Positions 1,194 to 25,426 of a stretch of 64,000 bases of DNA are shown here, piece after piece; position 1 is the first letter of the stretch; the number at the start of each line of letters is the position of its first letter. Position numbers and translations under genes: made by a program. The stretch spans positions 1 to 64,000 of the forward strand of contig NZ_BNCH01000006.1 in assembly GCF_014656375.1 (NCBI RefSeq), given 5' to 3'. This stretch comes from Aliiroseovarius zhejiangensis. Its GTDB lineage: Bacteria > Pseudomonadota > Alphaproteobacteria > Rhodobacterales > Rhodobacteraceae. The notes below the pieces were generated by a model, which saw nothing but the letters and a program-made list of their open reading frames with translations, was not told the DNA's origin and did not search any database.

Positions 1194-2453
1194 TCAGTTC
1201 GACGCGATATAGAAGGGCAAATCCTTGGCCGCGTTCTTGTACCAAGCGATGATTTTTTTGCGTTCTTCTTCTTCCATAAAGGACACGTTGGCCGGTGGCA
1301 TGGCGACCGAGACGCCAGCTTGCAGATAGATCTGGCGTGCGGCGTTGGCGATGTCGCCCGTGGTTTCCAGATGGATGCCCTTGGGCGCGCGGCGGATACC
1401 GTCATAGTAAACCTCGCGCGCATGACACATGGAGCAGCGGCCCAGGACAATGTCCTGGACCTCTTCAAACCCTTCGGCATTTGCGAAGATCTGCTCGGTC
1501 TTGCTCAGCGGGCGGGCTTCGGCCTCTTCCAACGTGTCATTCTCCAACGGTGCGGTGGACAGCCACATGATCATGATGAACAGAACCGCCGTCACCAGCC
1601 ACGTCCACTTGGGGTCACTTGTGCCCGCATGGTTCGAGTTGAAATAGTGCCGAATCGACACGCCCATCAGGAACACCAGCGCTGCGATGATCCAGTTATA
1701 CTCCGACGCAAAGGCCAGCGGATAATGGTTGGACAGCATCAGGAAGATGACCGGCAGCGTCAGATAGTTGTTGTGGGTCGAGCGCAGCTTGGCGATCTTG
1801 CCATACTTGGCGTCCGGCGTGCGGCCTTCCTGCAGGTCTTTCACAACGATGCGCTGGTTGGGCATGATGATGAAGAACACGTTGGCGGTCATGATCGTCG
1901 CGGTGAAGGCACCAAGGTGCAGCATGGTCGCGCGACCGGTGAAGATCTGGTTGTATCCCCAACCCATCGCCACCAGCAGGACGAACAGAAGCACCATCAG
2001 GACGGTCGGATTTTCCGCCAGCGGTGATTTGCACAGACGGTCATAGACCAGCCAGCCGATCGACAGCGACACCGCCGAGATCAGGATGCCCTGCCACAGC
2101 GCCAGGTCAGCTTTCTGCGCGTCGATCAGGTAAAGCTCGCCCCCCACCCAATAAACGATCATCAGAAGCGCCGCGCCTGACAGCCAGGTGGTGTAGCTTT
2201 CCCACTTGAACCAGATCAGGTGCTCGGGCATGTTTTCCGGCGCCACAAGGAACTTGCGGATGTGGTAGAACCCGCCTCCGTGAACCTGCCATTCTTCGCC
2301 GTGCGCGCCCTTGGGCAGATCCGGTGCTTTGCGCAGGCCAAGGTCCAACGCGACAAAGTAAAAGGACGAGCCAATCCAGGCCATGGCGGTGATGACGTGC
2401 AACCAACGGACCGCAAAGGCCAGCCAGTCCCACATGATTGCAAGATCTTGCAT
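1194..2453 (-). CDS. puuD: Urate hydroxylase PuuD (membrane-bound, cytochrome c-linked)
   Basis: A 419-residue protein with an N-terminal multi-pass membrane domain (hydrophobic segments between about residues 8 and 300) and a C-terminal cytochrome c domain. The heme site is C340-S-M-C-H344, with a likely axial Met in AMPPANV near residue 384. PuuD-type enzymes oxidise urate to 5-hydroxyisourate and pass electrons to the respiratory chain rather than to O2 as uricase does. The ATG at 2453 has GGAGG eight bases upstream. It is divergent from the LysR gene and next to HIU hydrolase and PuuE, which carry out the following steps. Confidence 0.92.
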   Translation of the reverse strand: MQDLAIMWDWLAFAVRWLHVITAMAWIGSSFYFVALDLGLRKAPDLPKGAHGEEWQVHGGGFYHIRKFLVAPENMPEHLIWFKWESYTTWLSGAALLMIVYWVGGELYLIDAQKADLALWQGILISAVSLSIGWLVYDRLCKSPLAENPTVLMVLLFVLLVAMGWGYNQIFTGRATMLHLGAFTATIMTANVFFIIMPNQRIVVKDLQEGRTPDAKYGKIAKLRSTHNNYLTLPVIFLMLSNHYPLAFASEYNWIIAALVFLMGVSIRHYFNSNHAGTSDPKWTWLVTAVLFIMIMWLSTAPLENDTLEEAEARPLSKTEQIFANAEGFEEVQDIVLGRCSMCHAREVYYDGIRRAPKGIHLETTGDIANAARQIYLQAGVSVAMPPANVSFMEEEERKKIIAWYKNAAKDLPFYIASN

Positions 2454-2556
2454 AGGGTTTTCCTCCGAGCTTTTGTAAAAAGGTAGCTCAATGAGGGATT
2501 ATCGTATATTGGGAAAAAGTATCTAGCTGCTTCAAAAAAAGCGAAAGAATAGGGCC

Positions 2557-3462
2557 ATGGCCTATCTGGACAACATCAGAACCTTCGTACGCGTCTATGA
2601 ACTGGGCAGCATGTCAGCTGCCGCGCGCGATCTGCGCATCTCGGCGGCGGTCGCGTCTTCGCGAATTTCGCAGCTTGAAGGCCATCTGGGCATTCGCCTG
2701 TTCCAGCGCACCACCCGGCTTCTGAACCCGACCGAACAGGGCAATACGTTCTATAAAGGTGCCAGCAAGATCCTGGAAGCGGTCGAGGCCGCCGAGGCCG
2801 ATATCAGCGACATCACACGGTCGCCACGCGGCACCTTGCATGTCGCCGCCCCGATCGGCATTGCGCAGCGGTTCATCGCGCCTGCGGTGCCGAAATTCAG
2901 GGAAACCTATCCGCTGATCAACATTCGCCTGCGGTCATCGGACCGCAAGCTGGACCTGGCTGCCGAAGGGCTGGACGCCGCCTTTTTCCTGGGTGTGCCC
3001 GAAGACAGCAACCTGCGCATTCGCAAGATCACCGATTGCCCGCGCGTTTTGTGTGCGTCGCCGGAATATATCCGCAACCACGGCATGCCGAAAACCAGTG
3101 ACGAGCTGCGCACCGACATGCATGATTGCCTGAACCTGCGCTATCCGGGCGCGCCCGAGTTTCAATGGCCCTTGCAGTCCGCGGATGGTGTAAAACGTGT
3201 CACTGTGTCGGGGCCGTTCGAGTCGGACCACGGCGAAATCCTGACCAACTGGGCGTTGGGTGGGCATGGGATTGTCTTGAAAACGGTGTTCGAGATCTCG
3301 GACCATCTGGCCAAGGGGCGTTTGGTGCCGGTTCTGACCAACGAACCCCCCCTGCCCATCCAATTGGCCTGCCTTTACATGCACCGCCGCAGGCAGGACC
3401 CGAAGGCCCGCCTGTTCATCGACTTCATGGTGGATCACATTCAGGCGGCAATGCCCAAATAG
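2557..3462 (+). CDS. LysR-family transcriptional regulator, probably of the purine/ureide genes
   Basis: A 301-residue LysR regulator. The winged helix-turn-helix fills residues 1-60 (MSAAARDLRISAAVASSRIS region), and a periplasmic-binding-protein-like effector domain follows from about residue 90. It lies between puuD (divergent) and uraH (convergent), so control of urate and ureide genes is the natural inference. The ligand is unknown. Candidate T-N11-A operators upstream of puuE and the ureidoglycine aminohydrolase gene are described separately. The ATG at 2557 has only a weak AGGG ribosome site. Confidence 0.88.
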   Translation: MAYLDNIRTFVRVYELGSMSAAARDLRISAAVASSRISQLEGHLGIRLFQRTTRLLNPTEQGNTFYKGASKILEAVEAAEADISDITRSPRGTLHVAAPIGIAQRFIAPAVPKFRETYPLINIRLRSSDRKLDLAAEGLDAAFFLGVPEDSNLRIRKITDCPRVLCASPEYIRNHGMPKTSDELRTDMHDCLNLRYPGAPEFQWPLQSADGVKRVTVSGPFESDHGEILTNWALGGHGIVLKTVFEISDHLAKGRLVPVLTNEPPLPIQLACLYMHRRRQDPKARLFIDFMVDHIQAAMPK

Positions 3463-3471
3463 ACCTGACCC

Positions 3472-3825
3472 TTAGCTGCCGCGATAGGTTGAATAGCCGA
3501 AGGGCGACAGCAGCAGGGGCACGTGGTAATGGGCTTCCTCCGACATGCCAAAGCGCAACGGCACCTCGTCAAGGAAGCGCGGGCTTTCCGGCGGCGTGCC
3601 GATGGCATCCAGATACGCACCCGTATGGAACACCAGTTCATAGGTGCCAAGCGCAAACTCGCTGGCGGGCAGGATCTGTTCATCCGTGCGTCCGTCATCG
3701 TTGGTTTTCAGGCTGCGCAAATGGGTGCGTTTGTCGCCCTCGATCCGATACAGGTCGATCTCAAGCCCTTCGGCCGGGCAGCCTCGGGCCGTGTCCAGAA
3801 CATGTGTCGTCAGATATCCGGTCAT
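3472..3825 (-). CDS. uraH: 5-hydroxyisourate hydrolase (transthyretin-like)
   Basis: A 117-residue protein, the normal length for the family. It hydrolyses 5-hydroxyisourate, the PuuD product, to OHCU. The N-terminal TTHVLD motif supplies the catalytic His, the middle has the HTGAYL segment, and the protein ends in the diagnostic YRGS tetrapeptide. There is no signal peptide, so it acts in the cytoplasm. It is convergent with the LysR gene (nine bases apart) and divergent from puuE across a 145-base intergenic region that contains a candidate operator. Confidence 0.95.
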
Positions 3826-3970: not shown

Positions 3971-5386
3971 TTGACACGCTACACCCGTGATATGCGCGGC
4001 TATGGCCCGAACCCGCCCGATCCGCAATGGCCGGGCAATGCCAAGGTCGCGGTGCAGTTTGTGCTGAACTACGAAGAAGGTGCGGAAAACTGCATCCTAC
4101 ACGGCGATGACGCGTCCGAGGCGTTTCTGTCCGACATTCCCGGTGCCGCGCCCTGGCCTGGTAAACGTCACTGGAACATGGAATCGATGTATGAATACGG
4201 TGCGCGCGCCGGGTTCTGGCGTCTGCATCGGCTGTTCACCGGCGCAGGTATTCCGCTGACCATCTATGGCGTCGCCCGCGCGCTGTCGCGCAGCCCCGAA
4301 CAGGTTCAGGCGATGAAGGACGCGGATTGGGAAATTGCCAGCCACGGCCTGAAATGGATCGAACACAAGGACATGCCCGAAGACGCGGAACGCGCCGCGA
4401 TTGCCGAAGCCGTGCGCCTGCATACCGAGGTCGTGGGCGAGCGTCCGCGCGGCTGGTACACGGGCCGCTGCTCGGAAAACACCGTGCGTCTGGCCGCCGA
4501 AGAAGGCGGGTTTGCCTATGTGTCCGATACTTACGACGACGATCTGCCCTATTGGATGGAGGTCGGCGACCGTGATCAACTGATCATCCCCTACACGCTG
4601 GAAGCCAACGACATGCGTTTCGCCACTGCGCCGGGATGGGTCACAGGGCAGGATTTCGGCGACTATCTGATTGATGCGTTCGACACGCTCTATGCCGAAG
4701 GTCAGGCCGGGCGCCCCGCGATGATGAGCGTCGGCCTGCATTGTCGTCTGGTCGGTCGCCCCGGCAAAATCGCTGGTCTGAAACGGTTTATCGACCATAT
4801 TCAGGCCCATGACGGCGTCTGGACCCCGCGTCGCATCGACATTGCCGATCACTGGGCAAAGACCCATCCGCCCCAGCGGTTTGAGCGCCCCAGCCAGATG
4901 GACAAGGCACGGTTTGTGTCGCTTTACGGCTCGATATTCGAACACTCCCCGTGGATAGCCGAACGCGCCTTCGATCTGGAGCTTGGCCCCGCCCATGATA
5001 GCGCCGCAGGTGTGCACAACGCTCTGTCCCGCGCTTTCCGCACCGCGACCGAGGACGAGCGCCTTGGCGTGCTGACCGCGCACCCCGATCTGGCGGGCAA
5101 GCTGGCCGCCGCAGGCCAGCTGACCGCCGAAAGCACCTCGGAACAGGCGGGCGCAGGGCTGGACTTTCTGACCGATGAGGAACGCGAGACCTTCACCAAG
5201 CTCAACACCGCCTATGTGGAAAAGCACGGCTTTCCCTTCATCATCGCGGTGCGCGATCACGACAAGGCGTCGATCCTGGCGAATTTCCACACCCGGATCG
5301 ACAATGATCGTGACACCGAGTTTGCCGAAGCCTGCCGTCAGGTCGAACGCATCGCGCAATTCCGCCTGAAGGATCTGCTTCCGTGA
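3971..5386 (+). CDS. puuE: Allantoinase PuuE fused to OHCU decarboxylase
   Basis: A 471-residue two-domain protein. Residues 1 to about 300 are the NodB/polysaccharide-deacetylase-like PuuE allantoinase (LNYEEGAEN near 33, EIASHGLKW at 121-129, RPRGWYTGR near 158), which opens allantoin to allantoate. Residues about 308-471 are an OHCU decarboxylase with catalytic His in HPDLAGK (H371), SEQAGAGLD at 390-398 and FPFIIAVR, which makes S-allantoin from OHCU. One chain thus does two consecutive steps. The start is TTG at 3971, chosen because AAGGAG lies seven bases upstream. It overlaps the next gene by GTGA. Confidence 0.93.
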   Translation: MTRYTRDMRGYGPNPPDPQWPGNAKVAVQFVLNYEEGAENCILHGDDASEAFLSDIPGAAPWPGKRHWNMESMYEYGARAGFWRLHRLFTGAGIPLTIYGVARALSRSPEQVQAMKDADWEIASHGLKWIEHKDMPEDAERAAIAEAVRLHTEVVGERPRGWYTGRCSENTVRLAAEEGGFAYVSDTYDDDLPYWMEVGDRDQLIIPYTLEANDMRFATAPGWVTGQDFGDYLIDAFDTLYAEGQAGRPAMMSVGLHCRLVGRPGKIAGLKRFIDHIQAHDGVWTPRRIDIADHWAKTHPPQRFERPSQMDKARFVSLYGSIFEHSPWIAERAFDLELGPAHDSAAGVHNALSRAFRTATEDERLGVLTAHPDLAGKLAAAGQLTAESTSEQAGAGLDFLTDEERETFTKLNTAYVEKHGFPFIIAVRDHDKASILANFHTRIDNDRDTEFAEACRQVERIAQFRLKDLLP

Positions 5387-5871
5387 CGCACACGCTATCG
5401 ACACAGCCCCTGACCGCAGCCGCCTTTGCCCCCTTCGGCGAGGTGATCGAGGTATCGGGCACACCTGACAAGATCATAAACCAAGGCATGTGCGGGCGTC
5501 ATCACGACCTCGCCACCCTTGATTTTGCGGATGGTCGCGTCGGGATCAGCCTGTTTGACGCCAAGGCGCGCACCTTTCCCTATTCGGTCGATATGGTCGA
5601 ACGTCATCCCGACGGCAGTCAGGCGTTCATTCCGGTGTCCGGCACGCCGATGCTGGTCGTCGTGGCCGAAGACCGGGACGGTGTGCCGGTAAATCTGCGG
5701 GCCTTCGTTTCGCAGCCCGGCCAATCCATCAACCTGCATCGCGGGGTCTGGCACGGCGTGCTCGCCCCCATCGAAAAACCGGGACAGTTCATCGTCATCG
5801 ACCGCATCGGTGACGGGCCGAACTTGCAAGAACACTGGTTCGACGACCCCTATATCGTCCAGTCAGTCTAA
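5383..5871 (+). CDS. allA: Ureidoglycolate lyase
   Basis: A 162-residue AllA-family protein, the usual length, with a cupin-like fold. Recognisable segments are FAPFGEVIE near the N-terminus, the GVWHGVL metal and substrate region near residue 125, and IVIDRIGDGPNLQEHW near the end. It splits ureidoglycolate into glyoxylate and urea. The GTG start overlaps the puuE stop as GTGA, so the two are translationally coupled. Its glyoxylate is the substrate of the BHC cycle encoded about 14 kb downstream. Confidence 0.93.
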   Translation: MTHTLSTQPLTAAAFAPFGEVIEVSGTPDKIINQGMCGRHHDLATLDFADGRVGISLFDAKARTFPYSVDMVERHPDGSQAFIPVSGTPMLVVVAEDRDGVPVNLRAFVSQPGQSINLHRGVWHGVLAPIEKPGQFIVIDRIGDGPNLQEHWFDDPYIVQSV

Positions 5872-5900: not shown

Positions 5901-5932
5901 TAGCGCGAACAGTCTAAATGGGAGGAAACCAC

Positions 5933-7369
5933 ATGGCTGACAACTCGATAGGGACTGCAGAACAACTGCGGGATCCAGATTATACGCCCCCGTTGCACAA
6001 GGCGATTCCGCTGGGCATCCAGCACGTCCTTGCGATGTTCGTGTCGAACGTCACCCCCGCGATCATCGTTGCGGGCGCGGCGGGTTTCGGGTTCGGGTCA
6101 AACTCGCCCGATTTCCCTGAACTGCTCTATCTGATCCAGATGTCGATGCTGTTTGCCGGTGTGGCGACGCTGTTGCAAACCTTCACGCTCGGACCCATCG
6201 GAGCAGCCCTGCCCATCGTGCAGGGCACGTCCTTTGCATTCCTGCCGATCATGATCCCGCTGGTGGCGGGCAAAGGTGTTGACGCGCTGGCGGCGCTGTT
6301 CACCGGGGTCATCATCGGCGGTATCTTCCACGCCTTCCTTGGCACGTTCATCGGCAAGCTGCGCTTTGCCCTGCCCCCGCTTGTCACCGGGCTTGTCGTC
6401 ACAATGATCGGTCTGGCGCTGGTGCAGGTGGGCATCCAGTATGCCGCCGGTGGTGTGCCCGCGATCGGCACCCCGGAATACGGGTCGCTTCTGAACTGGT
6501 CCGCCGCGCTGGTGGTGATCATCGTCACGCTGGGGCTGAAATTCTTCACCCGGGGGATGCTGTCGATCTCGGCGGTGCTGATCGGGCTGATCGTCGGCTA
6601 TGTTTATGCGATCATGATCGGCATGTTGTCGCTGGACGCCATCGCCGGATCATGGAGCAATGCCAGCGCCTTCGCCCTGCCGATGCCCTTCAAATACGGG
6701 TTCGAAATGTCCGCCGCCGCCATCATCGGCTTCTGCCTGATGGCGTTCATCTCGGCGATTGAAACCGTCGGCGATGTGTCCGGGATCACCAAAGGTGGTG
6801 CTGGCCGCGAAGCCACCGACAAGGAAATCCAGGGCGCGACCTATGCGGACGGGGTCGGCACGGCCGTTGCCGGCATGTTCGGCGCGTTCCCCAACACTTC
6901 GTTCAGCCAGAACGTGGGTCTGATCGCCATGACCGGCGTGATGAGCCGCCACGTCGTCACCTGTGGAGCGATCTTCCTGATCATCTGCGGTCTGGTCCCG
7001 AAAGTCGGTGGTGTCATACGCACCGTCCCGATCGAGGTTCTGGGCGGCGGCGTGATCGTGATGTTCGGAATGGTTGTGGCCGCCGGTATCTCGATGCTGT
7101 CGGATGTGGACTGGAACCGCCGCAACATGGTGATCTTCGCGATTGCCCTGTCCATCGGTCTGGGTCTGCAACTTGAGCCGGGCGCCCTTCAGCACCTGTC
7201 GGACACGCCGCGGATCCTGCTGACCTCGGGCCTTCTGCCTGCGGCCCTGATTGCCATCATCCTGAACCTGATTCTGCCGCACGAGCTGGCGGATGAAGCA
7301 ACCGAAGAGGTTTCGGGCGGCCATGCAGGTCACGGGCTTGGCTCGATCCCGCGTGACGATCACGTTTGA
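5933..7369 (+). CDS. NCS2-family purine (urate/xanthine) permease
   Basis: A 478-residue integral membrane protein of the nucleobase:cation symporter-2 family with about 12-14 hydrophobic segments. Family signatures visible are GIQHVLAMFVSNVTPAI near the start, LPIVQGTSFAFLPI, FISAIETVGDVSGI and FPNTSFSQNVGLIAMTGV near residue 310. The ATG at 5933 was preferred over the one at 5918 because GGAGG lies eight bases before it. It follows puuE-allA on the same strand, so urate, xanthine or allantoin-like uptake for this pathway is likely; the exact substrate is not readable from sequence. Confidence 0.9.
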   Translation: MADNSIGTAEQLRDPDYTPPLHKAIPLGIQHVLAMFVSNVTPAIIVAGAAGFGFGSNSPDFPELLYLIQMSMLFAGVATLLQTFTLGPIGAALPIVQGTSFAFLPIMIPLVAGKGVDALAALFTGVIIGGIFHAFLGTFIGKLRFALPPLVTGLVVTMIGLALVQVGIQYAAGGVPAIGTPEYGSLLNWSAALVVIIVTLGLKFFTRGMLSISAVLIGLIVGYVYAIMIGMLSLDAIAGSWSNASAFALPMPFKYGFEMSAAAIIGFCLMAFISAIETVGDVSGITKGGAGREATDKEIQGATYADGVGTAVAGMFGAFPNTSFSQNVGLIAMTGVMSRHVVTCGAIFLIICGLVPKVGGVIRTVPIEVLGGGVIVMFGMVVAAGISMLSDVDWNRRNMVIFAIALSIGLGLQLEPGALQHLSDTPRILLTSGLLPAALIAIILNLILPHELADEATEEVSGGHAGHGLGSIPRDDHV

Positions 7370-15203: not shown

Positions 15204-16670
15204 TCAGTGACCGCCATCGGATTGTTTCGCGGCCTCGACCAGCTCCTCTTCCGAGATTTCCTTGGTGCCGTTGAAGGCCATGTTCAACACGACCGCAGCA
15301 ATCGCTGCCAGCAGAATGCCCGAGTGGATCAGCGGCTCGATCGAATGCGGCAGCCACATGGTGAATTTCGGTGCGATCAGGGGGATCATCCCCATACCCA
15401 GCGAAATGGCGACGATCAGACCGTTATAGCGGTTGTGCTTGAAATCAACGCCACCCAGGATGCGCACACCCGTCGCCGCCACCATGCCGAACATCACCAG
15501 ACCAGCACCGCCAAGAACGGCCACCGGCAGAGCTTCGACCAAGGCGCCCATTTTCGGCACCAGACCCAGCACGATCATGATGACACCACCGGCCACGCAG
15601 ACATAGCGGCTCCGGATGCCGGTCACGCCCACCAGTCCCACGTTCTGGCTGAACGAGGTATAGGGGAAGGTGTTGAACACCCCACCGATCAGCGTGCCCA
15701 GACCATCGGTGCGCAGACCGGCCGACAGCGACGGACGCTCGATCTTCTTGTTGCACATCTCGCCCAGGGCCAGGAACATGCCGGTCGATTCAATCATCAC
15801 CACGATCATGACAAGCGTCATGGTTAGGATCATGATGGGGTCGAAAATCGGCAGACCGAAGCGGAACGGCGTGATCAGGGCGAACCAGCCGGCATGACCG
15901 ACGCTGTCAAAATGCATCATGCCGATCGAAGCGGCAAATACCGCGCCGACGATGATCCCCAGCAGGACCGAGATGTTGGCCAGGAAGCCCTTGGCGTATT
16001 TCATCACTACGATGATGGTCAGCAGAACGACGCCCGAGATCATCATGTTCTGCGGCGTTGCGTAACGCGGGTTGTCCACGGTCGGTGCGACTGTCAGCCC
16101 TTCCGGGATGGCCGGAATTGCGCCGCTTGCAAGCATGCCCCGCACTTCCTCAAGCCATGCCGTGTGGGCAGGATCGACAATTTCAGGTGCGGTGGGGCCG
16201 ACGGGCAGGCCGAAGATCCAGTTGATCCCGACGCGCATCAACGTGACACCGATCACCAGGATGATCGTGCCCGTGACAACAGGTGGGAAGAACCGCAACA
16301 TGCGGCTGACCAGTGGCGCGATCAGCATCGCAATGATCCCGGCACCAATGATGGCTCCGAAAATCATCCGTGCCCCGTCGACGCCTGGATTGGCCACCGC
16401 AATCGACACCATCGGCCCGACCGAGGCAAAGGTCACACCCATCATGACCGGCATCTTGATGCCGAACCATTTGGACGCACCCAGTGACTGGATGATGGTG
16501 ACCACGCCGCAGACAAACAGGTCTGCGGAAATCAGGAATGCCACCTGTTCAGGGTTCAGCTTCAGAACACGTCCGACGATCAGCGGCACCGCGATGGCAC
16601 CGGCATACATCACCAGAACGTGTTGAAGCCCAAGGGTAAAAAAGTCGCGCGGGCGGTAGCTTTTCGTCAA
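15204..16670 (-). CDS. NCS2-family nucleobase/urate:cation symporter with apparent N-terminal frameshift
   Basis: The uninterrupted frame gives 488 residues of a UapA/UacT/XanQ-like symporter with LGLQHVLVMYAGAIAVPLIV at the start, MPVMMGVTFASVGPM, and FNTFPYTSFSQNVGLVGVTG in the carrier domain. The expected beginning is in another frame: a GGAGGAGG ribosome site leads to ATG at 16701 and reads MSAVTTDVDPVDEKLPPAR, the usual NCS2 N-terminus, then runs out of frame at a six-T run (16638-16643 on the plus strand). Removing one T restores continuity. Either an indel error or a real frameshift is present. The TTG at 16670 is only a nominal start. Confidence 0.85.
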   Translation of the reverse strand: MTKSYRPRDFFTLGLQHVLVMYAGAIAVPLIVGRVLKLNPEQVAFLISADLFVCGVVTIIQSLGASKWFGIKMPVMMGVTFASVGPMVSIAVANPGVDGARMIFGAIIGAGIIAMLIAPLVSRMLRFFPPVVTGTIILVIGVTLMRVGINWIFGLPVGPTAPEIVDPAHTAWLEEVRGMLASGAIPAIPEGLTVAPTVDNPRYATPQNMMISGVVLLTIIVVMKYAKGFLANISVLLGIIVGAVFAASIGMMHFDSVGHAGWFALITPFRFGLPIFDPIMILTMTLVMIVVMIESTGMFLALGEMCNKKIERPSLSAGLRTDGLGTLIGGVFNTFPYTSFSQNVGLVGVTGIRSRYVCVAGGVIMIVLGLVPKMGALVEALPVAVLGGAGLVMFGMVAATGVRILGGVDFKHNRYNGLIVAISLGMGMIPLIAPKFTMWLPHSIEPLIHSGILLAAIAAVVLNMAFNGTKEISEEELVEAAKQSDGGH

Positions 16671-16787: not shown

Positions 16788-19064
16788 TCAGCCATAGCTG
16801 GACACCGCAGATCCGGCCAAAGCAGCCGTATTCAAAAGCCCCCTTACGGTGATCGAGGGCGTCACGATATGCACGCGGTTGCCCATCCCCATCAGGATCG
16901 GACCGACCTCCAGCCCGCCGGCGACCGTTTTAAGGATGTTGCGCGTGGCACCTGCCGCATCCGTGTTGGCATAGACCAGCACGTTGGCCTTGCCGGTCAG
17001 ACGCCCACCGGGAAACAGCCGCTCGCGCAGGTCAGGGTCAAGGGCTGCATCGGTGTGCATCTCGCCTTCGTATTCAAAATCCAGCGGTTGCTGATCAAGA
17101 ATGTCCAATGCCCCGCGCATGGCCCGCCCGGACGCGCTGTCCAGATTGCCGAATTGCGAACCCGAACACAGCGCGATCCGCGGTTCGATCCCGAACCGTC
17201 GCACGTGGCGGGCGGCAGCCACGACGATCTCGGACAGTTGTTGAGCATCGGGTGTGATGTTCACATGGGTATCCGCCACAAACAGCGGCCCCTGATCCAG
17301 GATCATCAAGGACAGGGCACCGACCGGGTGCAGTTCGCCTTCCGCCAGCAGGCTGGTGGCATAGTTCAGGTGCCAGCGAAATTCGCCGAACGTGCCGCAG
17401 ACCATGCTGTCGGCTTCCTCGCGCCGGACCATCACGGCGGCAATCGCCGTGGTGTTGGTGCGCAGGATGGCCTTGGCCAGATCGGGTGTGACCCCCTGAC
17501 GGGCCATGACATCGTGATAGGTTTCCCAGTATTCGCGATACCGCTGGTCGCTTTCCGGGTTCACCAGTTCGAAATCCTGCCCCGGCTTGATCTTCAGCCC
17601 TTCGCGTTCAAGGCGTGCCTCGACCACTTCGGGACGACCGATCAGGATGGGGGTGTCCACGCCTTCTTCGACCATCGTCTGGGCGGCGCGCAACACGCGC
17701 TCGTCCTCGCCCTCGGCGAAAACGATCCGGCGCTTGGCAGCACGGGCGGCGTCGAACACGCGGCGCATGATGGAGTATGACCGGAACACCTCGCCCTGAA
17801 GGGTGGTCTTGTATTCGTCCAGATCAAGCTCGCGGGTCGCAACCCCCGACTCGATGGCCGCACGCGCCACCGCAGTGGCAATCGTCGGCAACAGGCGCGG
17901 GTCAAACGGTTTGGGGATCAGGTATTCCGACCCGAAGGTCAGACGCTCGCCGCGATAGGCCACCCCGACCTCGGCCGAGGTCGTTTCCCGCGCCAGCCCG
18001 GCAATCGCCTCGACACAGGCCAGCTTCATCGCGTCATTGATCTCGGTCGCGCCGCTGTCCAGCGCGCCGCGGAAGATGAACGGGAAACACAGGACGTTGT
18101 TGACCTGATTGGGATAATCCGACCGGCCGGTGGCGATCAGGGCGCCGGGCGCGACCTCGCGCGCCTCTTCGGGCATGATCTCGGGCGTGGGGTTGGCGAG
18201 CGCGAAGATGATCGGATCATCCGCCATCTTCTTCACCATGTCCTGGGTCAACAGGCCCGGGCCCGAGACACCCAGGAACAGATCCGCCCCGACCATCGCA
18301 TCATCGGTGGTGCGCATGTCGGTGTCGCGGGCGAATTCCTGCTTTTGCGGGTTCAGATCGGTGCGGCCCGTGTGGACCACGCCCTTGCTGTCCAGCATGG
18401 TGATATGCTCTTTCTTGACGCCCATCACCATCAGCATTTTCAGGCAGGCAATGCCCGCCGCGCCTGCGCCCAAGGCGACAACCTTGATATCCTCGACCTT
18501 CTTTTTGGCCACGATCAACGCGTTGAACGCGGCAGCCGAGGCCACAATGGCCGTACCGTGCTGATCGTCATGGAACACCGGGATGTTCATCTTCTTCCGG
18601 CACAGTTCCTCGACCAAAAAGCAGTCGGGTGCCTTGATATCCTCAAGGTTCACCGCGCCGAAGGTGGGTTCCAGCTTGGCAACGATCTCGGCCAGTTTTT
18701 CGGGATCGGTTTCATTGACTTCGATGTCGAAGCAATCAATGCCAGCGAATTTCTTGAACAGAACCGCCTTGCCTTCCATCACCGGCTTCGACGCCTGCGC
18801 GCCGATATTGCCCAGCCCCAGAACCGCCGTCCCGTTCGAGATCACGGCAACAAGGTTGCCCTTGGATGTGTAGCGCGCCGCGTCCGCCGGGTTCTTCTCG
18901 ATCTCAAGACAGGCTTCAGCCACACCGGGGCTATAGGCGTTCGACAGATCGCGCCCGGTGGCCATCGGCTTGGTCGCGCGGATTTCCAGTTTTCCGGGCT
19001 TCGGAAACTCGTGATAATCCAGTGCTTCTTGTCGTTTGTCGGCGCTTTTATTGTCCAGAGCCAT
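16788..19064 (-). CDS. maeB: NADP-dependent malic enzyme with phosphotransacetylase-like C-terminal domain
   Basis: A 758-residue MaeB. The N-terminal half is the malic enzyme: [20 protein letters not shown], the FHDDQHGTA motif and a [21 protein letters not shown]-binding fold. The C-terminal part (from about residue 430) resembles phosphate acetyltransferase but in this family is regulatory, sensing acetyl-CoA. It oxidatively decarboxylates malate to pyruvate. The ATG at 19064 was chosen over an upstream one because GGAGGAGG lies eight bases before it. It lies downstream of bhcD and can draw off C4 acids made by the BHC cycle. Confidence 0.94.
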
Positions 19065-19149
19065 GTTCTGTTCCTCCTCCAGAGCGGGCCGGAAAGGCGC
19101 CGCAATCAGCATGCTGTGGGTTTGCCCCACCTGTTGTCATGCTGATACT

Positions 19150-19222: not shown

Positions 19223-20188
19223 TCAGAAATCGACCTCGATCGCGATGCCCTTTTCGATCGCCAGATCGACAACCTTCGAAGCCACCGCCAGGTCTTGCAA
19301 CCCAACACCCGTGCCGTCGAACAAGGTCACTTCGTCATCGGACCGACGCCCCGGATGGTCGCCATTGATGACCGCCCCGATCTCGGCAATGTCAGCCTGT
19401 TTCAGTGACCCGTCGGCAATCGCGTGCTGCGCCTCTCCGATGCTGATCGACTGGGCGATTTCATCGGTAAACACCGTCGCGCGGGCGACCAATGCGGCCT
19501 CGACCTCTTGTTTGCCCTTGGTGTCTGTCCCCATGCAGGCGATGTGTGTGCCCGGCTTGACCTGCCCATCCTTCAGGATTGCTGCCTGGCTGGAGACAAT
19601 CGTCACGATCACATCTGCCTGCGCGCCCAGCTCGTCCAGGCTCACGCTTTCAAACGGCAGGCCCAATTCCTTTGCGACCTTCTCAAGCGAAGCCAGTTTC
19701 TCGGGCGTCCGGTTCCACGCCACAACCTTCTCGAAATCGCGCTGCTCGGCCACCGCCTGCAACTGGAACGTCGCCTGATGGCCTGCCCCGATCATCCCCA
19801 GAACCTTGCTGTCCTTACGCGCCAGATGCGCGACGGACACGGCGGCGGCGGCAGCGGTGCGCAGCGCGGTCAAAAGATTGCCCCCGACGACAGCGCGGCA
19901 TTTGCCGGTGTCTGCGTCAAACAGAAACACCGTCGACTGGTGGTTGGTCAGGCCCTTTGCCGCATTGCCGGGCCAGTATCCGCCCGATTTCAGCCCAAGG
20001 TTCAGCGCCGCGCGGTCAAAGCCGGATTTGAACCCATAAAGCGCATCGGCATGGCCGATGGCTTCGCGGATCACAGGGAAGTTATAGGCCGACTTGCTGG
20101 CCATCGACGCGAACACCTGTTCAACCGCGTCGAAATTGTCTTTGCGTGTCACAAGGGCGGCGATTTCTTTTTCGGGGACGATATACAT
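19223..20188 (-). CDS. bhcD: Iminosuccinate reductase of the beta-hydroxyaspartate cycle
   Basis: A 321-residue member of the ornithine cyclodeaminase/mu-crystallin family, with the NAD(P) fold motif GMIGAGHQATFQ near residue 133 and a conserved substrate Lys region (GLKSGGYWPGN). In the BHC cycle BhcD reduces iminosuccinate to aspartate. Family alone would also allow ectoine-catabolic EutC or ornithine cyclodeaminase; the order A-B-C-D on one strand and divergent bhcR decide the call. AAGGA precedes the ATG. Confidence 0.9.
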   Translation of the reverse strand: MYIVPEKEIAALVTRKDNFDAVEQVFASMASKSAYNFPVIREAIGHADALYGFKSGFDRAALNLGLKSGGYWPGNAAKGLTNHQSTVFLFDADTGKCRAVVGGNLLTALRTAAAAAVSVAHLARKDSKVLGMIGAGHQATFQLQAVAEQRDFEKVVAWNRTPEKLASLEKVAKELGLPFESVSLDELGAQADVIVTIVSSQAAILKDGQVKPGTHIACMGTDTKGKQEVEAALVARATVFTDEIAQSISIGEAQHAIADGSLKQADIAEIGAVINGDHPGRRSDDEVTLFDGTGVGLQDLAVASKVVDLAIEKGIAIEVDF

Positions 20189-20246: not shown

Positions 20247-21413
20247 TTAGTAAGCCTTGCCGCGTGCCGACACCGGCCACACGGTTTCGACTTTGCCGTT
20301 CCGCACGCCCACATACCAGTCATGGACATTGGCGGTCGGGTCACAGTGGCCCGGCACCAGCTTCAGCTTTTCGTTCACCTTCAGAACGCCGTTGGGGTCC
20401 GCCACAACGCCGTGTTCGTCGGAACATTTGATGTATTCCACATCGTCACGGCCATAGATGAACGGCAGGCCGCTATCCACCGATTGCGCTTTCAGGCCCG
20501 CATCGACGATGGCCTTGTCGGGTTTCGCGTGGCTCATCACCGAGGTCAGGATGAAGAACGCGTTTTCCCATTCGCCCGCGTCGATCCGGTTGCCGTCCTT
20601 GTCCAGAATGCGCCCGTAATCTGCGTCCATGAACGCATAGGAACCGCACTGCAGTTCATTATAAACGCCGGAATTCGCTTCGAAATAATACGAACCGGTG
20701 CCGCCGCCCGAAACCAGATCGGTTTCGATCCCTTCGGCCTTCAACGCCTCGATCGCGTCCGAGACCTGCGCCACGGCGGCGTCGATCTTGGCTTTGCGGT
20801 CATCGAAGCTGTCCATGTGCTGCATCGCGCCCTGATAGGCCTGAATGCCGCGATAGGTCAGGTTCTTCGCGTCGCGCACGGTCTTGGCAATCTCGACGAC
20901 CGCTTCGGTGGTGGTTACGCCGCAACGGCCCGCGCCGCAGTCGATTTCGATGAACACGCCCAGATCCGTGCCGTGCTTCTGCGCGGCTTCGGACAGGTCG
21001 GCAATGTTGGCCACGTCGTCGACGCAGACGATGATCTCGCCGCCGCTGACCTTGGGAAGTTGCGCCAGACGGTCGATCTTGGCCGGGTCGCGCACCTGGT
21101 TCGACACCAGAATTTCCTTGATGCCAGCGCGGGCGAACACCTCGGCTTCCGAGACCTTCTGACAGCAGACGCCAACCGCGCCGCCCAGCTCCATCTGAAG
21201 CTTCAGCACGTCCACGGATTTGTGCATCTTGCCATGCGCGCGGTGGCGCATCCCGTGGGCCTTGGCATAGTCGCCCATTTTCTTGATGTTCCGCTCAAGC
21301 GCATCAAGATCCAGAACTAGACAGGGCGTCTGGATGTCAGCTTCGTCCATGCCGGGCACGGCGGGAACGTCAAAACCCACTTCCAGCTTCGAAAAATCAG
21401 TCGGTGCATTCAT
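20247..21413 (-). CDS. bhcC: Beta-hydroxyaspartate aldolase
   Basis: A 388-residue PLP enzyme of the D-threonine aldolase/alanine racemase-like fold III group: the N-terminal TPCLVLDLDALERNI and RAHGKMHKS (PLP Lys region near residue 62) and a C-terminal domain with the HCDPT metal-site segment. In the BHC cycle it condenses glycine and glyoxylate into (2R,3S)-beta-hydroxyaspartate. The genome context separates it from plain D-threonine aldolase. It lies 15 bases after bhcB. Confidence 0.92.
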   Translation of the reverse strand: MNAPTDFSKLEVGFDVPAVPGMDEADIQTPCLVLDLDALERNIKKMGDYAKAHGMRHRAHGKMHKSVDVLKLQMELGGAVGVCCQKVSEAEVFARAGIKEILVSNQVRDPAKIDRLAQLPKVSGGEIIVCVDDVANIADLSEAAQKHGTDLGVFIEIDCGAGRCGVTTTEAVVEIAKTVRDAKNLTYRGIQAYQGAMQHMDSFDDRKAKIDAAVAQVSDAIEALKAEGIETDLVSGGGTGSYYFEANSGVYNELQCGSYAFMDADYGRILDKDGNRIDAGEWENAFFILTSVMSHAKPDKAIVDAGLKAQSVDSGLPFIYGRDDVEYIKCSDEHGVVADPNGVLKVNEKLKLVPGHCDPTANVHDWYVGVRNGKVETVWPVSARGKAY

Positions 21414-21428: not shown

Positions 21429-22382
21429 TCAGGTGTTCAGCCACGGCAGTTTGTCCAGATCGACATTGCCGCCAGTGATGATGATGCCAACACGCTTGCC
21501 TTTGAACGTGTCGGGGTTTTTCAGGATCGTCGCCAGAGGCACGGCGCTGGAGGGTTCCATCACGATACGCAGATGTTTCCAGATGATTTTCATTGCCTCG
21601 ATGATCTCGGGGTCGGACGCGGTATAGATGTCGGACACGTGGTTCGATACGAAATGCCAGGTCAGATCCTTCAAGGGCACCAGCAGACCATCGGCGATGG
21701 TCTTGGGTGCGTCATCGGCAATGATGTGGCCGGCCTTGAAGCTGCGATAGGCGTCATCCGCCTGTTCCGGCTCTGCCGCGATGATCTTGGTTTCCGGCGC
21801 CAGGTTGGACAGGGTCAGGCAGGTGCCCGAAATCATGCCGCCGCCCCCGATGGGCGCAACCGCAAAATCCAGTCCGTCCACCTGCTCGATCATCTCTTTC
21901 GAGCACGTCCCCTGCCCCGCGATCACCCGCGGGTCGTTGTAAGGGTGAACGAAATCGCCGCCAGTTTCGGCCTGCACCTTGGCGAAGGTCTCTTCGCGCG
22001 AGGATGTCGACGGTTCGCATTCGGTGATCTTGCCACCATAGCGGCGCACCGTGTCTTTCTTGGCCTGCGGTGCAGTGCGTGGCATGACCACGTTGCACGG
22101 GATCCCACGCAGCATGGCGGCATAGCTCAGACAGGACGCATGGTTTCCGCTGGAATGGGTCGCCACGCCCTTCTTTGCCTGTTCCTCGTCCAGCCCAAAC
22201 ACCGCGTTCGAGGCACCGCGCACCTTGAACGCGCCCGGCTCCTGAAAGTTCTCGCATTTGAAGAACAGCTCGGCACCGGTCAATTCGTTCAGGTAATCCG
22301 ACGTGCGGATCGGGGTGCGGCGGATATGCGGCTTGATGCGCTCGTGCGCGGCCAGCATGTCGTCAAGCGTAGGGATATACAT
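21429..22382 (-). CDS. bhcB: Beta-hydroxyaspartate dehydratase
   Basis: A 317-residue PLP fold II enzyme related to serine racemase and threonine dehydratase. The PLP Lys lies in EPGAFKVRGA near residue 56, followed by the substrate loop SSGNHA and the glycine-rich phosphate site PIGGGGMISG. It dehydrates beta-hydroxyaspartate to iminosuccinate. The ATG at 22382 was preferred to an upstream TTG because AAGGA is suitably placed. It follows bhcA with a short gap. Confidence 0.92.
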   Translation of the reverse strand: MYIPTLDDMLAAHERIKPHIRRTPIRTSDYLNELTGAELFFKCENFQEPGAFKVRGASNAVFGLDEEQAKKGVATHSSGNHASCLSYAAMLRGIPCNVVMPRTAPQAKKDTVRRYGGKITECEPSTSSREETFAKVQAETGGDFVHPYNDPRVIAGQGTCSKEMIEQVDGLDFAVAPIGGGGMISGTCLTLSNLAPETKIIAAEPEQADDAYRSFKAGHIIADDAPKTIADGLLVPLKDLTWHFVSNHVSDIYTASDPEIIEAMKIIWKHLRIVMEPSSAVPLATILKNPDTFKGKRVGIIITGGNVDLDKLPWLNT

Positions 22383-22402
22383 CGTCGTGGTATCCTTTCC
22401 GA

Positions 22403-23572
22403 TCAAACGGCGTTGTTGCGATAGTATTCCTGCGCCGCAGCAACACCCGAGCCCAGTTTGATATCCAGCCCCAGATCGACCATCACCATTTCGGCGGTGG
22501 CAAGTCCCGACAGGGTCATTACGTCGGTCAGGCTGCCCAAATGGCCGATGCGGAACACCTTACCCGCGACCTCGCCCAGACCAACACCAAACGCGACGCC
22601 GTATTTGTTGGCGGCATGGGTCACGATATCGGTGGCGTTGAAGCCCTCGGGCGTGCGGATGGCGCTGACCGTGTCCGACTGCACATCGGGCGACACCGCG
22701 CACAGCTCCAGCCCCCAGGCACTGACCGCCTGACGCACGCCTTCGGCAATCCGGTGGTGGCGGGCAAAGACATTCTCAAGCCCCTCGTCCAGCAACATCC
22801 TGCACGCTTCGTTCAACCCGTTCAGCAGCCCCACGGCGGGCGTATAGGGATAGGCGTTGTTGGCATAGCCTTTGCCCATGTCACGCACGTCAAAGAAGGT
22901 GCGCGGCAAGGTGGCGGTTTCCAGCGCGTCCATCGCCTTGGGCGAAAAGCCGACAATCGCCAGACCGGCCGGCAGCATGAAGCCCTTCTGCGACCCGGTC
23001 ACGGCAACATCCACACCCCATTCGTCCATGCGGAAATCCATCGACGCGATCGAGCTGACGCCGTCCACAAACAGCATCGCCGGGTGGCCTGCGGAATCCA
23101 GAGCCTTGCGCACAGCCCCGATATCCGACCGAACGCCGGTGGCGGTTTCGTTATGCGTGGCCAGAACGACCTTGATCTCGTGGTTCGTGTCGGCCTTCAG
23201 GATCTCTTCGTATTTGTCGGCAGGCAGACCTGCGCCCCAAGGGGTTTCGACAACTTGCACGTCCAGCCCGTGACGCTGACACATATCAATCCAGCGGTGG
23301 CTGAACATGCCGTTGCGGGCGGCCAGAATCTTGTCGCCGGACGACAGCGTGTTGGTCAGCGCGGTTTCCCAGCCACCAGTGCCGGTTGACGGGAAGATGA
23401 AGATCTTGGCGGTTTCGCTTTTCAAAACCTTCTTCACACCGTCCAGAGCCGGGTGCAGGATTTGCCCGAACAGCGGCGAACGGTGGTCCAGTGTCGGCAT
23501 GTCGACAGCCTTGCGCAGGCTTTCAGGCATGTTGGTCGGACCAGGAATGAAAACGGGGTTCTGGAAGCTCAT
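22403..23572 (-). CDS. bhcA: Aspartate-glyoxylate aminotransferase
   Basis: A 389-residue class V aminotransferase related to serine-glyoxylate and alanine-glyoxylate transaminases. It begins with NPVFIPGPTNMPE; the PLP Lys is in VTGSQKGFMLP near residue 198, preceded by the FVDGVSSIASMDFRMD strand. In the BHC cycle it moves the amino group of aspartate to glyoxylate, giving glycine and oxaloacetate. It is the first gene of the operon and faces bhcR. Confidence 0.93.
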   Translation of the reverse strand: MSFQNPVFIPGPTNMPESLRKAVDMPTLDHRSPLFGQILHPALDGVKKVLKSETAKIFIFPSTGTGGWETALTNTLSSGDKILAARNGMFSHRWIDMCQRHGLDVQVVETPWGAGLPADKYEEILKADTNHEIKVVLATHNETATGVRSDIGAVRKALDSAGHPAMLFVDGVSSIASMDFRMDEWGVDVAVTGSQKGFMLPAGLAIVGFSPKAMDALETATLPRTFFDVRDMGKGYANNAYPYTPAVGLLNGLNEACRMLLDEGLENVFARHHRIAEGVRQAVSAWGLELCAVSPDVQSDTVSAIRTPEGFNATDIVTHAANKYGVAFGVGLGEVAGKVFRIGHLGSLTDVMTLSGLATAEMVMVDLGLDIKLGSGVAAAQEYYRNNAV

Positions 23573-23635
23573 CTATCTGCCCTCCTAATGGCGATCAGCT
23601 TTCAGAGTAGCGGCTTGTGGCCTCGGGCGATATTT

Positions 23636-23656
23636 TTTTGAAAAAGTATTTCAAAA
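23636..23656. promoter_or_regulatory. Palindrome in the bhcA-bhcR divergent promoter, candidate BhcR operator
   Basis: TTTTGAAA and TTTCAAAA are perfect reverse complements around a five-base centre (AAGTA). The site is AT-rich against GC-rich surroundings, lies about 65 bases upstream of bhcA and 117 bases upstream of bhcR, and has the size expected for an IclR dimer site. Binding by BhcR is inference from position. Confidence 0.55.
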
Positions 23657-23772
23657 CTCGATTACACGGGCTAATATCAATGTAAATCAAGGCTTTGCCT
23701 TTTTTCACTCTGACCCGTGCATTATCAAGAATTTCCGAAAGGTCTTGCTTGTTACAGCCAAAGGAGACGAAA

Positions 23773-24582
23773 ATGCAACCCACGCAACGGCGGATGGGAC
23801 GCCCGAAAAGTTTCAATGCCAGCGAAAAGCAGACGACGATTCTGGCGCTCGATCGGGCGCTGGACGTGCTTGATGCGCTGGCGGGCGCAAGCGGGATGAC
23901 CTTGTCGGATCTGTCGACGCATCTGGACCAGTCGCCCGCCACCATGCACCGGGTGCTGGCAACGCTGCATGCCCGAGACGTGGTCGAGATCGACCCAAGA
24001 ACACAGGCCTGGCACATCGGTTCGGCCGCATTCCGCATGGGGTCGGCCTTCCTGCGGCGCAGCAGCATCGTGGAGCGTAGCCGCCCTGTCATGCGCGAGT
24101 TGATGGAGGCAACCGGCGAGACCTCGAACCTTGGTATTGAACGCAATGGCGAGGTGATGTTCATCAGTCAGGTGGAAACCCACGAGAACATCCGCGCGTT
24201 CTTTCCGCCCGGCACGTTGTCGCCCATGCATGCCTCGGGTATCGGGAAAGCCCTGCTTTCCTGCTATTCGGATCAGCGGATCGAGAGGTATTTCCAGTCA
24301 GCCCGGCTGAACGGCTTTACCGACAAAACCATCACCCGGCCTGACGTGCTGCGCGACGAGCTGGCCCGCATCCGGAACCGGGGCTGGTCTTTTGACGACG
24401 AGGAAAAAGCGGACGGGATGCGCTGCATCGCCGCCCCGATCCGGGACATTCATGGCGAAGCGGTGGCGGGCATTTCGATTTCGGGCCCGACCCACCGTAT
24501 GCCCGAAAGCGCGATCGACCGGATCGGCGCGCTTGTGGCGGATGCGGCCGCGCAGGTGTCGCGCGGCCTTGGGTCGTCCTAG
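23773..24582 (+). CDS. bhcR: IclR-family regulator of the beta-hydroxyaspartate cycle
   Basis: A 269-residue IclR regulator: N-terminal winged helix-turn-helix (residues about 22-80, with TLSDLSTHLDQSPATMHRVL) and a C-terminal ligand domain with LSPMHASGIGKALLS and RGWSFDDEEKADGMRCIAAP. BhcR proteins bind glyoxylate and control bhcABCD. AAGGAG five to ten bases before the ATG at 23773 fixes the start; an upstream ATG at 23695 lacks a site and would add unrelated residues. It is divergent from bhcA. Confidence 0.92.
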   Translation: MQPTQRRMGRPKSFNASEKQTTILALDRALDVLDALAGASGMTLSDLSTHLDQSPATMHRVLATLHARDVVEIDPRTQAWHIGSAAFRMGSAFLRRSSIVERSRPVMRELMEATGETSNLGIERNGEVMFISQVETHENIRAFFPPGTLSPMHASGIGKALLSCYSDQRIERYFQSARLNGFTDKTITRPDVLRDELARIRNRGWSFDDEEKADGMRCIAAPIRDIHGEAVAGISISGPTHRMPESAIDRIGALVADAAAQVSRGLGSS

Positions 24583-24592
24583 GTGCTTGCCC

Positions 24593-25426
24593 CTAGACCC
24601 CCGCGTTGCCCAGCGTCATGTGCCGGTTCACATCCTTGTAAAGCAGATAGCGGAACGGCCCCGGCCCGCCTGCATAGCACGCCTGCGGGCAGAACGCGCG
24701 CAGCCACATGTAATCCCCGGCCTCGACCTCGACCCAATCCTGGTTCAGACGGTAAACCGCTTTGCCTTCAAGCACATAAAGCCCGTGTTCCATCACATGG
24801 GTTTCTGCAAACGGAATGACGCCGCCGGGCTGGAAGGTCACGATGGTCACATGCATGTCGTGGCGCAGGTCGTTCGGATCAACGAACCGGCTGGTCGCCC
24901 AGGCTCCATCGGTGTCGGGCATCGGCGTCGGGGTCACGTCGTTTTCGTTGGTGACAAAGGCGTCGGGGGCGTCCAGTCCTTCAACGGCTTGATACTGCTT
25001 GCGAATCCAGTGGAACCGCACAGGCGCGGACCCGGTGTTGCGCAGGCTCCACTTGGCTTGCGGGGGCAGGAATGCATATCCGCCCTCGTCCATCTCGTGC
25101 GCCGTGCCGTCAATGGTCAGGGTCATCGCACCCTCGACGACAAACAAGACCGCCTCGACCCCCGCTTCGGTTTCGGGCCGGTCACTGCCACCGCCCGGCT
25201 GAACCTCGGCGATATATTGCGAGAAGGTCTCGGCAAACCCCGACAACGGCCGCGACAACACCCAGAACCGCGCATCGTCCCAGAACGGCAGAAGGCTGGC
25301 GACGATATCGCTGTATGTGCCCTTGGGGATGACGGCATAGGCTTCGGTGAACATGGCCCGGTCGGTCAAAAGCTGGGTTTGCGGGGGCAATCCGCCATGC
25401 GGGGCGTAGTAGCTCGATTTTGTCAT
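24593..25426 (-). CDS. (S)-ureidoglycine aminohydrolase (bicupin)
   Basis: A 277-residue protein of two cupin barrels. It starts with YYAPHGGLPPQTQLLTDRA, typical of AllE/UGHY proteins, and the second cupin holds the metal ligands in FAETHVMEHGLYVLEGKAVY. It removes ammonia from ureidoglycine to give ureidoglycolate, the substrate of the lyase encoded at 5383-5871. An upstream ATG at 25453 would add nine residues. It is convergent with bhcR (10 bases) and has its own promoter region with a LysR-type site. Confidence 0.9.
   Translation of the reverse strand: MTKSSYYAPHGGLPPQTQLLTDRAMFTEAYAVIPKGTYSDIVASLLPFWDDARFWVLSRPLSGFAETFSQYIAEVQPGGGSDRPETEAGVEAVLFVVEGAMTLTIDGTAHEMDEGGYAFLPPQAKWSLRNTGSAPVRFHWIRKQYQAVEGLDAPDAFVTNENDVTPTPMPDTDGAWATSRFVDPNDLRHDMHVTIVTFQPGGVIPFAETHVMEHGLYVLEGKAVYRLNQDWVEVEAGDYMWLRAFCPQACYAGGPGPFRYLLYKDVNRHMTLGNAGV

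Follow-up and report, generated by a model that had tools for sequence, protein, structure and literature searches.

The stretch of DNA analysed here, the first 64,000 nucleotides of contig NZ_BNCH01000006.1 of Aliiroseovarius zhejiangensis (assembly GCF_014656375.1; called the window below), contains between positions 1194 and 25453 the genes for the breakdown of urate to glyoxylate and, among them, the bhcRABCD genes of the β-hydroxyaspartate cycle (BHC), which makes oxaloacetate from glyoxylate. We consider it probable, with good confidence, that this region is a cluster for the assimilation of purine carbon. The reading is carried by the gene content, by the frequent proximity of bhc and ureide genes across the family, by the repeated re-formation of that proximity, and by the rarity of the glycolate oxidase genes glcDEF at bhc loci. 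The preliminary description of this DNA had proposed a route from purines through glyoxylate to oxaloacetate; the core of that proposal is borne out by the neighbourhoods reported below, and its overall reading is supported only in part.

Gene identities were assigned with NCBIfam models at their curated cut-offs, supplemented with Pfam cut-offs for Urate_ox_N and AmiS/UreI. Every gene named in the preliminary description was found at its place by these profile matches, and the order across 1194-25453 is as follows.

1194..2453, minus strand: puuD, membrane urate hydroxylase (Urate_ox_N, Pfam PF06181, 447 bits, over the cut-off)
2557..3462, plus strand: LysR-type gene divergent from puuD, a putative regulator (25 matches to LysR family models shown, each below its curated cut-off)
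3472..3825, minus strand: uraH, 5-hydroxyisourate (HIU) hydrolase (TIGR02962, 127.5 bits against a cut-off of 87.45)
3971..5386, plus strand: puuE, allantoinase fused to 2-oxo-4-hydroxy-4-carboxy-5-ureidoimidazoline (OHCU) decarboxylase in a single open reading frame (TIGR03212, 518.8 bits, and TIGR03164, 216.3 bits, both above cut-off)
5383..5871, plus strand: allA, ureidoglycolate lyase, products urea and glyoxylate (NF002952, 276 bits against 260)
5918..7369, plus strand: first NCS2 purine permease (TIGR00801, ncs2, above cut-off; TIGR03173, pbuX, slightly below)
7582..10239, plus strand: aceE, pyruvate dehydrogenase (PDH) E1 of the homodimeric type (TIGR00759, 1444.6 bits, above cut-off)
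10264..11535, plus strand: aceF, PDH E2 (TIGR01348, 562.5 against 552.1)
11549..13291, plus strand: lpd, PDH E3 (TIGR01350, 521 against 408.8)
13414..14166, plus strand: TauE/SafE family permease, after lpd (PF01925)
14619..15125, minus strand: AmiS/UreI family channel, probable urea channel (PF02293, 157.9 bits, above cut-off)
15204..16670, minus strand: second NCS2 purine permease (TIGR03173, 499.6 against 414.15)
16788..19130, minus strand: maeB, malic enzyme with a phosphotransacetylase-like domain (NF009501, 984.5 bits, below the model cut-off of 1178; pta-type C-terminal match also below cut-off)
19223..20188, minus strand: bhcD, iminosuccinate reductase (NF045643, 585.3 against 500)
20247..21413, minus strand: bhcC, β-hydroxyaspartate aldolase (NF045642, 750.2 against 690)
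21429..22406, minus strand: bhcB, β-hydroxyaspartate dehydratase (NF045641, 584.8 against 550)
22403..23572, minus strand: bhcA, aspartate-glyoxylate aminotransferase (NF045640, 761.6 against 650)
23773..24582, plus strand: bhcR, IclR-type regulator (NF045644, 417.4 against 350, scored for 23755-24582; start set from the sequence at the ATG behind the Shine-Dalgarno-like AAAGGAG)
24593..25453, minus strand: (S)-ureidoglycine aminohydrolase (UGlyAH), possibly bifunctional with allantoicase (TIGR03214, 315.6 against 200; NF040771, 511.5 against 350)

The four enzyme genes bhcA, bhcB, bhcC and bhcD are thus contiguous, each above its curated cut-off, with bhcR divergent from them, and urate hydroxylase, HIU hydrolase, OHCU decarboxylase, allantoinase and ureidoglycolate lyase are all encoded in the window, the LysR gene lying between puuD and the HIU hydrolase gene. 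The allantoate step could be taken by UGlyAH, which passes NF040771, a model labelled 'bifunctional allantoicase/(S)-ureidoglycine aminohydrolase'. A separate allantoicase gave no match in the genome in a search to which the control genomes were equally silent. One hydantoinase/carbamoylase homologue was found that passes the 'allantoate amidohydrolase' subfamily model and yet adjoins a dihydropyrimidinase gene, a neighbour that makes a role in pyrimidine metabolism the more likely one. Xanthine dehydrogenase is encoded elsewhere in the genome, with two XdhB copies above cut-off on contigs C5 and C4; a copy adjoining the cluster was looked for and rejected, the neighbour of UGlyAH being a sulfatase-like gene.

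From these genes the following route can be proposed. Purines would enter through the NCS2 permeases, urate would be formed by the xanthine dehydrogenase encoded elsewhere, and PuuD, HIU hydrolase and the PuuE-OHCU decarboxylase fusion would convert urate to allantoate. Glyoxylate, together with ammonia and/or urea, would then be released by AllA and by a UGlyAH that probably also acts as an allantoicase, and the UreI-type channel may export the urea. BhcA to BhcD would direct the flux of two glyoxylate, one per purine ring from two rings, into one oxaloacetate without loss of carbon. MaeB and the second, AceE-type PDH could convert the four-carbon product to pyruvate and acetyl-CoA. BhcR responds to glyoxylate (PMC11323563), and would do so in this cluster as well.

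The comparison of neighbourhoods that the preliminary description had called for was made across 120 genera of the family, each represented by a single genome and that of the window among them, and bhc-ureide proximity proved common. BhcC exceeds its curated cut-off in 51 of the 120 genera (53 copies), PuuE in 110 and UGlyAH in 108. Counting the genome of the window, 22 of the 51 genera have bhcC no more than 10 kb from PuuE or UGlyAH, and 23 have it no more than 20 kb away. Random placement would bring 0.61 copies within 10 kb, and 23 of the 53 were observed there, although a P-value for this difference should not be taken literally because the genomes are related. Owing to contig breaks this count is a minimum: several of the unlinked copies sit on contigs that are 3 to 13 kb long. 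Weaker BhcC matches are close to PuuE or UGlyAH (within 20 kb) in none of six cases at 600-690 bits and in three of nine below 600 bits.

Of the 68 BhcC places, 60 were fetched, each with up to 20 kb of sequence, and mapped with the proteins of the window; the other eight were the window and seven weak matches. A ureide gene is present in 22 of the 48 stretches with complete bhcABCD (linked loci). A second set consists of the 80 loci from named genomes closest to the BhcC of the window, among more matches that exist; it contains 68 loci with all of bhcABCD, and a ureide gene accompanies 50 of them, a proportion biased to near relatives, many of them Leisingera. By their NCBI names, linked clusters also occur outside Rhodobacterales, in Fulvimarina and Stappia (Hyphomicrobiales) and in Roseibium (Stappiaceae). 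In a sample of the class (385 genomes) BhcB is above cut-off in 14; 12 loci were fetched, nine of which are complete, one from the family of the window, and two of the nine are linked, both in other families. A crude stop-to-stop comparison of open reading frames revealed no shared neighbour in more than three of 29 unlinked bhc loci.

The history of the linkage was followed on a tree of concatenated BhcA to BhcD, made by a quick method from 60 of 109 rows, 29 linked and 31 unlinked; 17 complete loci from which a protein was not cleanly extracted had been dropped. The linked state requires 12 changes on this tree, 10 of them forced by well-supported branches, although seven of the 31 unlinked rows come from stretches shorter than 20 kb, some of which are perhaps truly linked, and the count would then be too high. 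Shuffled labels need about 20 changes, and none of 500 shuffles was as low as 12. Therefore, the linkage has been partly inherited and partly gained or lost repeatedly. In three genomes with no BhcC match at 1e-100 (loci L143, L155 and L158) the same ureide cluster is present without the bhc block. UGlyAH stands there directly behind the NCS2 gene in L143 and L158, and about 1.5 kb behind it in L155, which is the position that bhcRABCD occupies elsewhere.

At least five gene orders occur among the linked clusters, the commonest being UGlyAH-bhcR-bhcABCD-NCS2-AllA-PuuE-HIU hydrolase-LysR-PuuD. In the genome of the window aceEF-lpd, TauE, UreI, NCS2 and maeB are inserted between the NCS2 gene and bhcD. 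Paracoccus has bhcABCD-NCS2-HIU hydrolase-PuuD, in some cases with PuuE-UGlyAH beyond bhcR on the opposite side, and Shimia has bhcABCD followed by TauE-HIU hydrolase-PuuD. In other linked clusters UGlyAH stands between PuuE and AllA, and in Cribrihabitans the ureide block is inverted. Paracoccus denitrificans is the species in which the BHC was worked out, and in strain HAMBI_2443 bhcR-bhcABCD is followed, next to bhcD, by an NCS2 permease, HIU hydrolase, PuuD and TauE (mapped by tblastn, the gene table of the record being empty there). In P. pantotrophus DSM 11072 xdhABC additionally follows a cluster of the bhc-NCS2-HIU hydrolase-PuuD type.

Linked clusters are also carried on plasmids, and BhcC is present in 119 records of a plasmid collection at E 1e-100. 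A 109 kb plasmid of Leisingera aquaemixtae contains, within about 21 kb, modABC, UGlyAH, bhcRABCD, UreI, NCS2, AllA, PuuE, UraH, LysR, PuuD, LysR and xdhAB. A plasmid of Pseudosulfitobacter pseudonitzschiae carries PuuD, LysR, xdhABC, a permease, guaD, UGlyAH and bhcRABCD; UraH, PuuE and AllA were not found within the 33 kb shown. The bhc genes are a block with several partners, and purine breakdown is the commonest partner observed in the family.

Further arrangements of bhc genes were observed beside these. On plasmids of Paracoccus pantotrophus ACCC10489 (L179, 6.1-14.1 kb) and Aminobacter (L180, 2.0-12.2 kb) bhc follows genes for N-formylglutamate amidohydrolase, a glutamine-synthetase-like protein, aldehyde dehydrogenase and iron alcohol dehydrogenase, which are perhaps another source of glyoxylate. 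A conjugative Phaeobacter plasmid (L178, 11.0-13.2 kb) has bhcBC alone with genes for an FAD oxidoreductase, RidA and TRAP, and bhcBCD or bhcBC without bhcA and bhcR nearby were found in Roseobacter, Ruegeria and others (L070-L072, L074, L128 and L139); such sets may be a hydroxyaspartate-degrading offshoot. In Sulfitobacter sp. OXR-159 (L183, 2.5-9.2 kb) Tn3 and IS1380-like elements lie between bhcA and a short IclR-family gene, a remnant of bhcR, in a cluster that is otherwise linked. A lone BhcC-like gene is found 18-36 bases from UGlyAH in the ureide clusters of L023 (7.1-9.1 kb), L024 (9.8-11.8 kb) and L025 (9.5-11.4 kb), none of which has bhcA, bhcB or bhcD in the fetched stretch. Against the BhcC model these genes score 707, 586 and 504 bits, respectively, and only that of L023 exceeds the cut-off. 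One complete genome (G055, contig C1; L017 and L018) has two bhcRABCD clusters. One of them is accompanied by ureide genes, and the other, with UGlyAH (a partial match), MaeB, UreI, Lpd and AceF, resembles the window.

The glycolate genes present a different picture. Two or more genes of glcDEF were found beside bhc in none of the 48 complete stretches of the genus sample, a lone 31% GlcF-like match being detected in L030, and in one of the 68 complete loci of the second set, that of Pseudaminobacter soli. Among the 51 genera with BhcC, 48 have a GlcD match, and in none of these does it lie within 20 kb of bhcC (the nearest is at 21.9 kb); in 39 of the 48 the two are on different contigs. The genome of the window follows this pattern, with glcDEF on contig C3 and bhc on C6; its GlcD-like protein is taken as glycolate oxidase because the adjoining GlcE and GlcF pass their cut-offs. 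No match to glyoxylate carboligase (Gcl) was found at E 1e-170 in the 120 genera, the genome of the window included, and the E. coli control was positive. This leaves the BHC, malate synthase and reductases as candidate routes for glyoxylate.

Two kinds of promoter motif were examined, and the sites in the window are the following.

23634..23653, minus strand: bhcA-side promoter motif, probable BhcR box (TGAAA...TTTCA), a conserved motif to which BhcR is predicted to bind
23723..23746, minus strand: match to the 'ureide box' directly before the bhcR start (score 27.0; motif trained on UGlyAH upstreams)
25507..25530, plus strand: ureide box ahead of the gene for UGlyAH (score 26.6; upstreams of this kind were used to train the motif)

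The bhcA motif has the consensus TGAAAAA.ttTTTCAAAAAA and scores above the 1% shuffle threshold ahead of bhcA in 91 of 99 non-redundant sequences, a count that includes the training set of 97. The ureide box exceeds the same threshold in 26 of 44 puuE, 17 of 30 puuD and eight of 97 bhcA upstreams, and upstream of the NCS2 genes it does so in none of 52 (NCS2a) and one of 53 (NCS2b). On the bhcR side of the gap between bhcR and bhcA it scores at least 12 in 13 of 54 linked and two of 43 unlinked loci (Fisher P 0.010), both threshold and place having been picked after the scores were seen; the site of the window is the best bhcR-side site of all. The motif is common to the UGlyAH, puuE and puuD promoters, some linked clusters have it at the bhcR promoter as well, and it may bring in a purine signal as a further layer of control. 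Motifs trained on puuE or puuD upstreams did not transfer and were set aside; they probably reflect coding sequence of the divergently oriented neighbour. Non-redundant linked loci with PuuE number 43, and 30 of them have a LysR gene at 45% identity or more. An Rfam scan of the window gave no match at the gathering threshold to riboswitches such as the xanthine/urate class.

Several observations weigh against the reading as a purine-carbon cluster, or limit it. The predicted allantoate step draws its support from a family label. More than half of the complete bhc stretches of the genus sample, 26 of 48, have no ureide gene nearby (eight of these 26 are on stretches shortened by contig ends), and plasmid copies of bhc also adjoin quite different genes. 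Control of all ureide promoters by the BhcR box is unsupported: the bhcA motif, found at one of 49 UGlyAH, eight of 41 PuuE (weakly) and none of 32 PuuD upstreams, appears nearly confined to bhcA, hence a common BhcR regulon would lack support. When the whole bhcA upstream is considered, the ureide box at a score of at least 14 shows a smaller contrast, 21 of 73 linked against nine of 44 unlinked, with redundant rows included, and in the window itself the puuE (9.0) and puuD (5.8) upstreams are below the threshold, UGlyAH and bhcR being strong. Ureide clusters that lack bhc have the box less often (PuuE 7/24, UGlyAH 4/18, PuuD 4/18) than linked ones do (24/41, 38/47 and 16/27, respectively), and it may mark a lineage. 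The LysR protein of the cluster was also tried as the owner of the box, and the association was not significant (21 of 37 against 10 of 29, P 0.087). Only two carbons of the purine ring reach glyoxylate, so that little carbon is gained per purine. Finally, the genome of the window encodes GlcDEF, and a GlcD-like match is present in 111 of the 120 genera, none above the TIGR00387 cut-off. Use of glycolate is therefore likely too, which bears on exclusivity, and purine use would add to it and not replace it.

Considering the small gain of carbon, purines could serve as a source of nitrogen only, the adjoining BHC genes removing glyoxylate as a reactive and toxic by-product without feeding carbon into growth. 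By established chemistry the ring yields far more nitrogen than usable carbon, and the urea-channel homologue suggests that urea is turned over. For mere removal, however, malate synthase or a reductase would suffice. A carbon-conserving cycle, accompanied in a few genera by MaeB and PDH, fits net assimilation. The response of BhcR to glyoxylate is in favour of removal, whereas the failure of bhcABCD and bhcR deletion strains of P. denitrificans to grow on glycolate or glyoxylate is against it (both from PMC11323563). On balance this explanation is unlikely, though it keeps appreciable weight.

The BHC could also serve glycolate, its proximity to purine genes reflecting a common chromosomal or plasmid niche spread by transfer and no joint function. 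The GlcDEF of the genome, the plasmid-borne clusters of several genera and the bhc modules that adjoin other genes elsewhere would agree with such a niche. It fits poorly with ureide genes at 22 of 48 complete loci against glcDEF at none, with the absence of any other neighbour common to more than three of the 29 unlinked loci in the crude comparison, and with an adjacency that has been kept through several rearrangements while the tree calls for some ten or more changes of its state; moreover, the product of one gene set is the substrate of the other. We regard a mere shared niche as improbable. That the two sets are chance neighbours in one genome has a single point in its favour, the 26 complete loci without ureide neighbours, and is refuted by the excess over random placement (23 of 53 copies for 0.61 expected), by the counts of complete loci and by the tree; its probability is negligible. 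The assimilation of purine carbon remains our preferred reading of the region.

The preliminary description had further suggested that MaeB and PDH close the oxidation. Their genes do recur beside bhc in several genera, but in a minority of loci: among the 116 complete ones (48 and 68), MaeB is near in seven and PDH genes in five. One of these five PDH loci, L067, has no ureide gene in its stretch, and among incomplete bhc loci L029 has MaeB and L024 has PDH beside UGlyAH and the lone BhcC-like gene. The PDH of the window is an AceE-type complex, and a PDH E1-alpha is also encoded on contig C1. In a cceR mutant of P. denitrificans on glyoxylate MaeB was among the lowered gluconeogenic enzymes (PMC11323563). 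A closing step by MaeB and PDH is plausible, and it is not general. The E3 protein has an N-terminal lipoyl-type domain, residues 2-105 matching the E2 model TIGR01348. AmiS/UreI is near bhc in one of 48 complete loci of the genus sample and 18 of 68 of the second set, and the TauE/SafE gene recurs in other linked clusters (L003, L010 and L136).

Outside the cluster, the sulfatase-like gene adjoining UGlyAH occupies 25544-27892. Behind it, at 27856-32651, lie several open reading frames for which NCBIfam gave no match at 1e-20, together with a gene of the Methyltransf_24 family; the whole may be a cell-surface locus. Genes of the nitrous-oxide-reductase type lie at 43480-51979 and encode ApbE (NosX-like), NosL, NosD and a Fer4_5/FMN_bind protein (NosR-like).

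In the allantoin regulon of E. coli (allA, gcl, allR) ureide breakdown is likewise coupled to the assimilation of glyoxylate, by Gcl there, whereas the BHC is in its place in the family of the window. The carboligase/glycerate route of E. coli loses CO2. The E. coli regulator AllR is an IclR-family protein that responds to glyoxylate (PMC11323563). With the bhcRABCD of P. denitrificans the window shares the four enzymes and BhcR, the divergent bhcR and the conserved bhcA promoter motif; the difference is that the cycle was described there for glycolate, with glcDEF at a separate locus (Pden_4397-99 against Pden_3921/3922; PMC11323563), whereas the bhc genes of the window are inside a purine cluster. 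The introduction of that 2024 BHC paper already states that purines and allantoin yield glyoxylate, and the words urate, xanthine and permease were not found in its main text. The purine operons of SAR11 and SAR116 (PMC11698098) resemble the window in PuuD, HIU hydrolase, OHCU decarboxylase, PuuE, ureidoglycolate lyase and NCS2, with glyoxylate as the carbon product; the main text of that 2025 paper is without the word hydroxyaspartate, and the parts examined do not take up the BHC as an outlet for glyoxylate. No paper reporting joined bhc-purine gene clusters was found in the open literature that the search covered. As far as comparison of sequences can tell, the novelty would lie in two known pathways joined in one cluster, with wide comparative support.

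Our results suggest that the BHC, known mainly for algal glycolate and discussed as its sink, also serves purine use. A wider proposal, which we put forward tentatively and think somewhat more doubtful than probable, is that the BHC of Rhodobacterales is as much, or primarily, a pathway for purine carbon. In this proposal ureide clusters would have gained, lost and regained a portable bhcRABCD block on many occasions, the most complete case being the xanthine-to-oxaloacetate island on the Leisingera plasmid, the BHC locus of P. denitrificans would be of the same kind, and glycolate use would borrow a cycle kept near purine genes. Deletion strains of bhcABCD and bhcR are reported for P. denitrificans (PMC11323563), and a role of the BHC in purine use is testable there at once. 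If the cycle does carry purine carbon, one large bacterial group would have an answer to the fate of purine-derived glyoxylate, bhc gene counts would need care as a measure of glycolate use, and a plasmid-borne module for the carbon-conserving use of purines would exist in nature.

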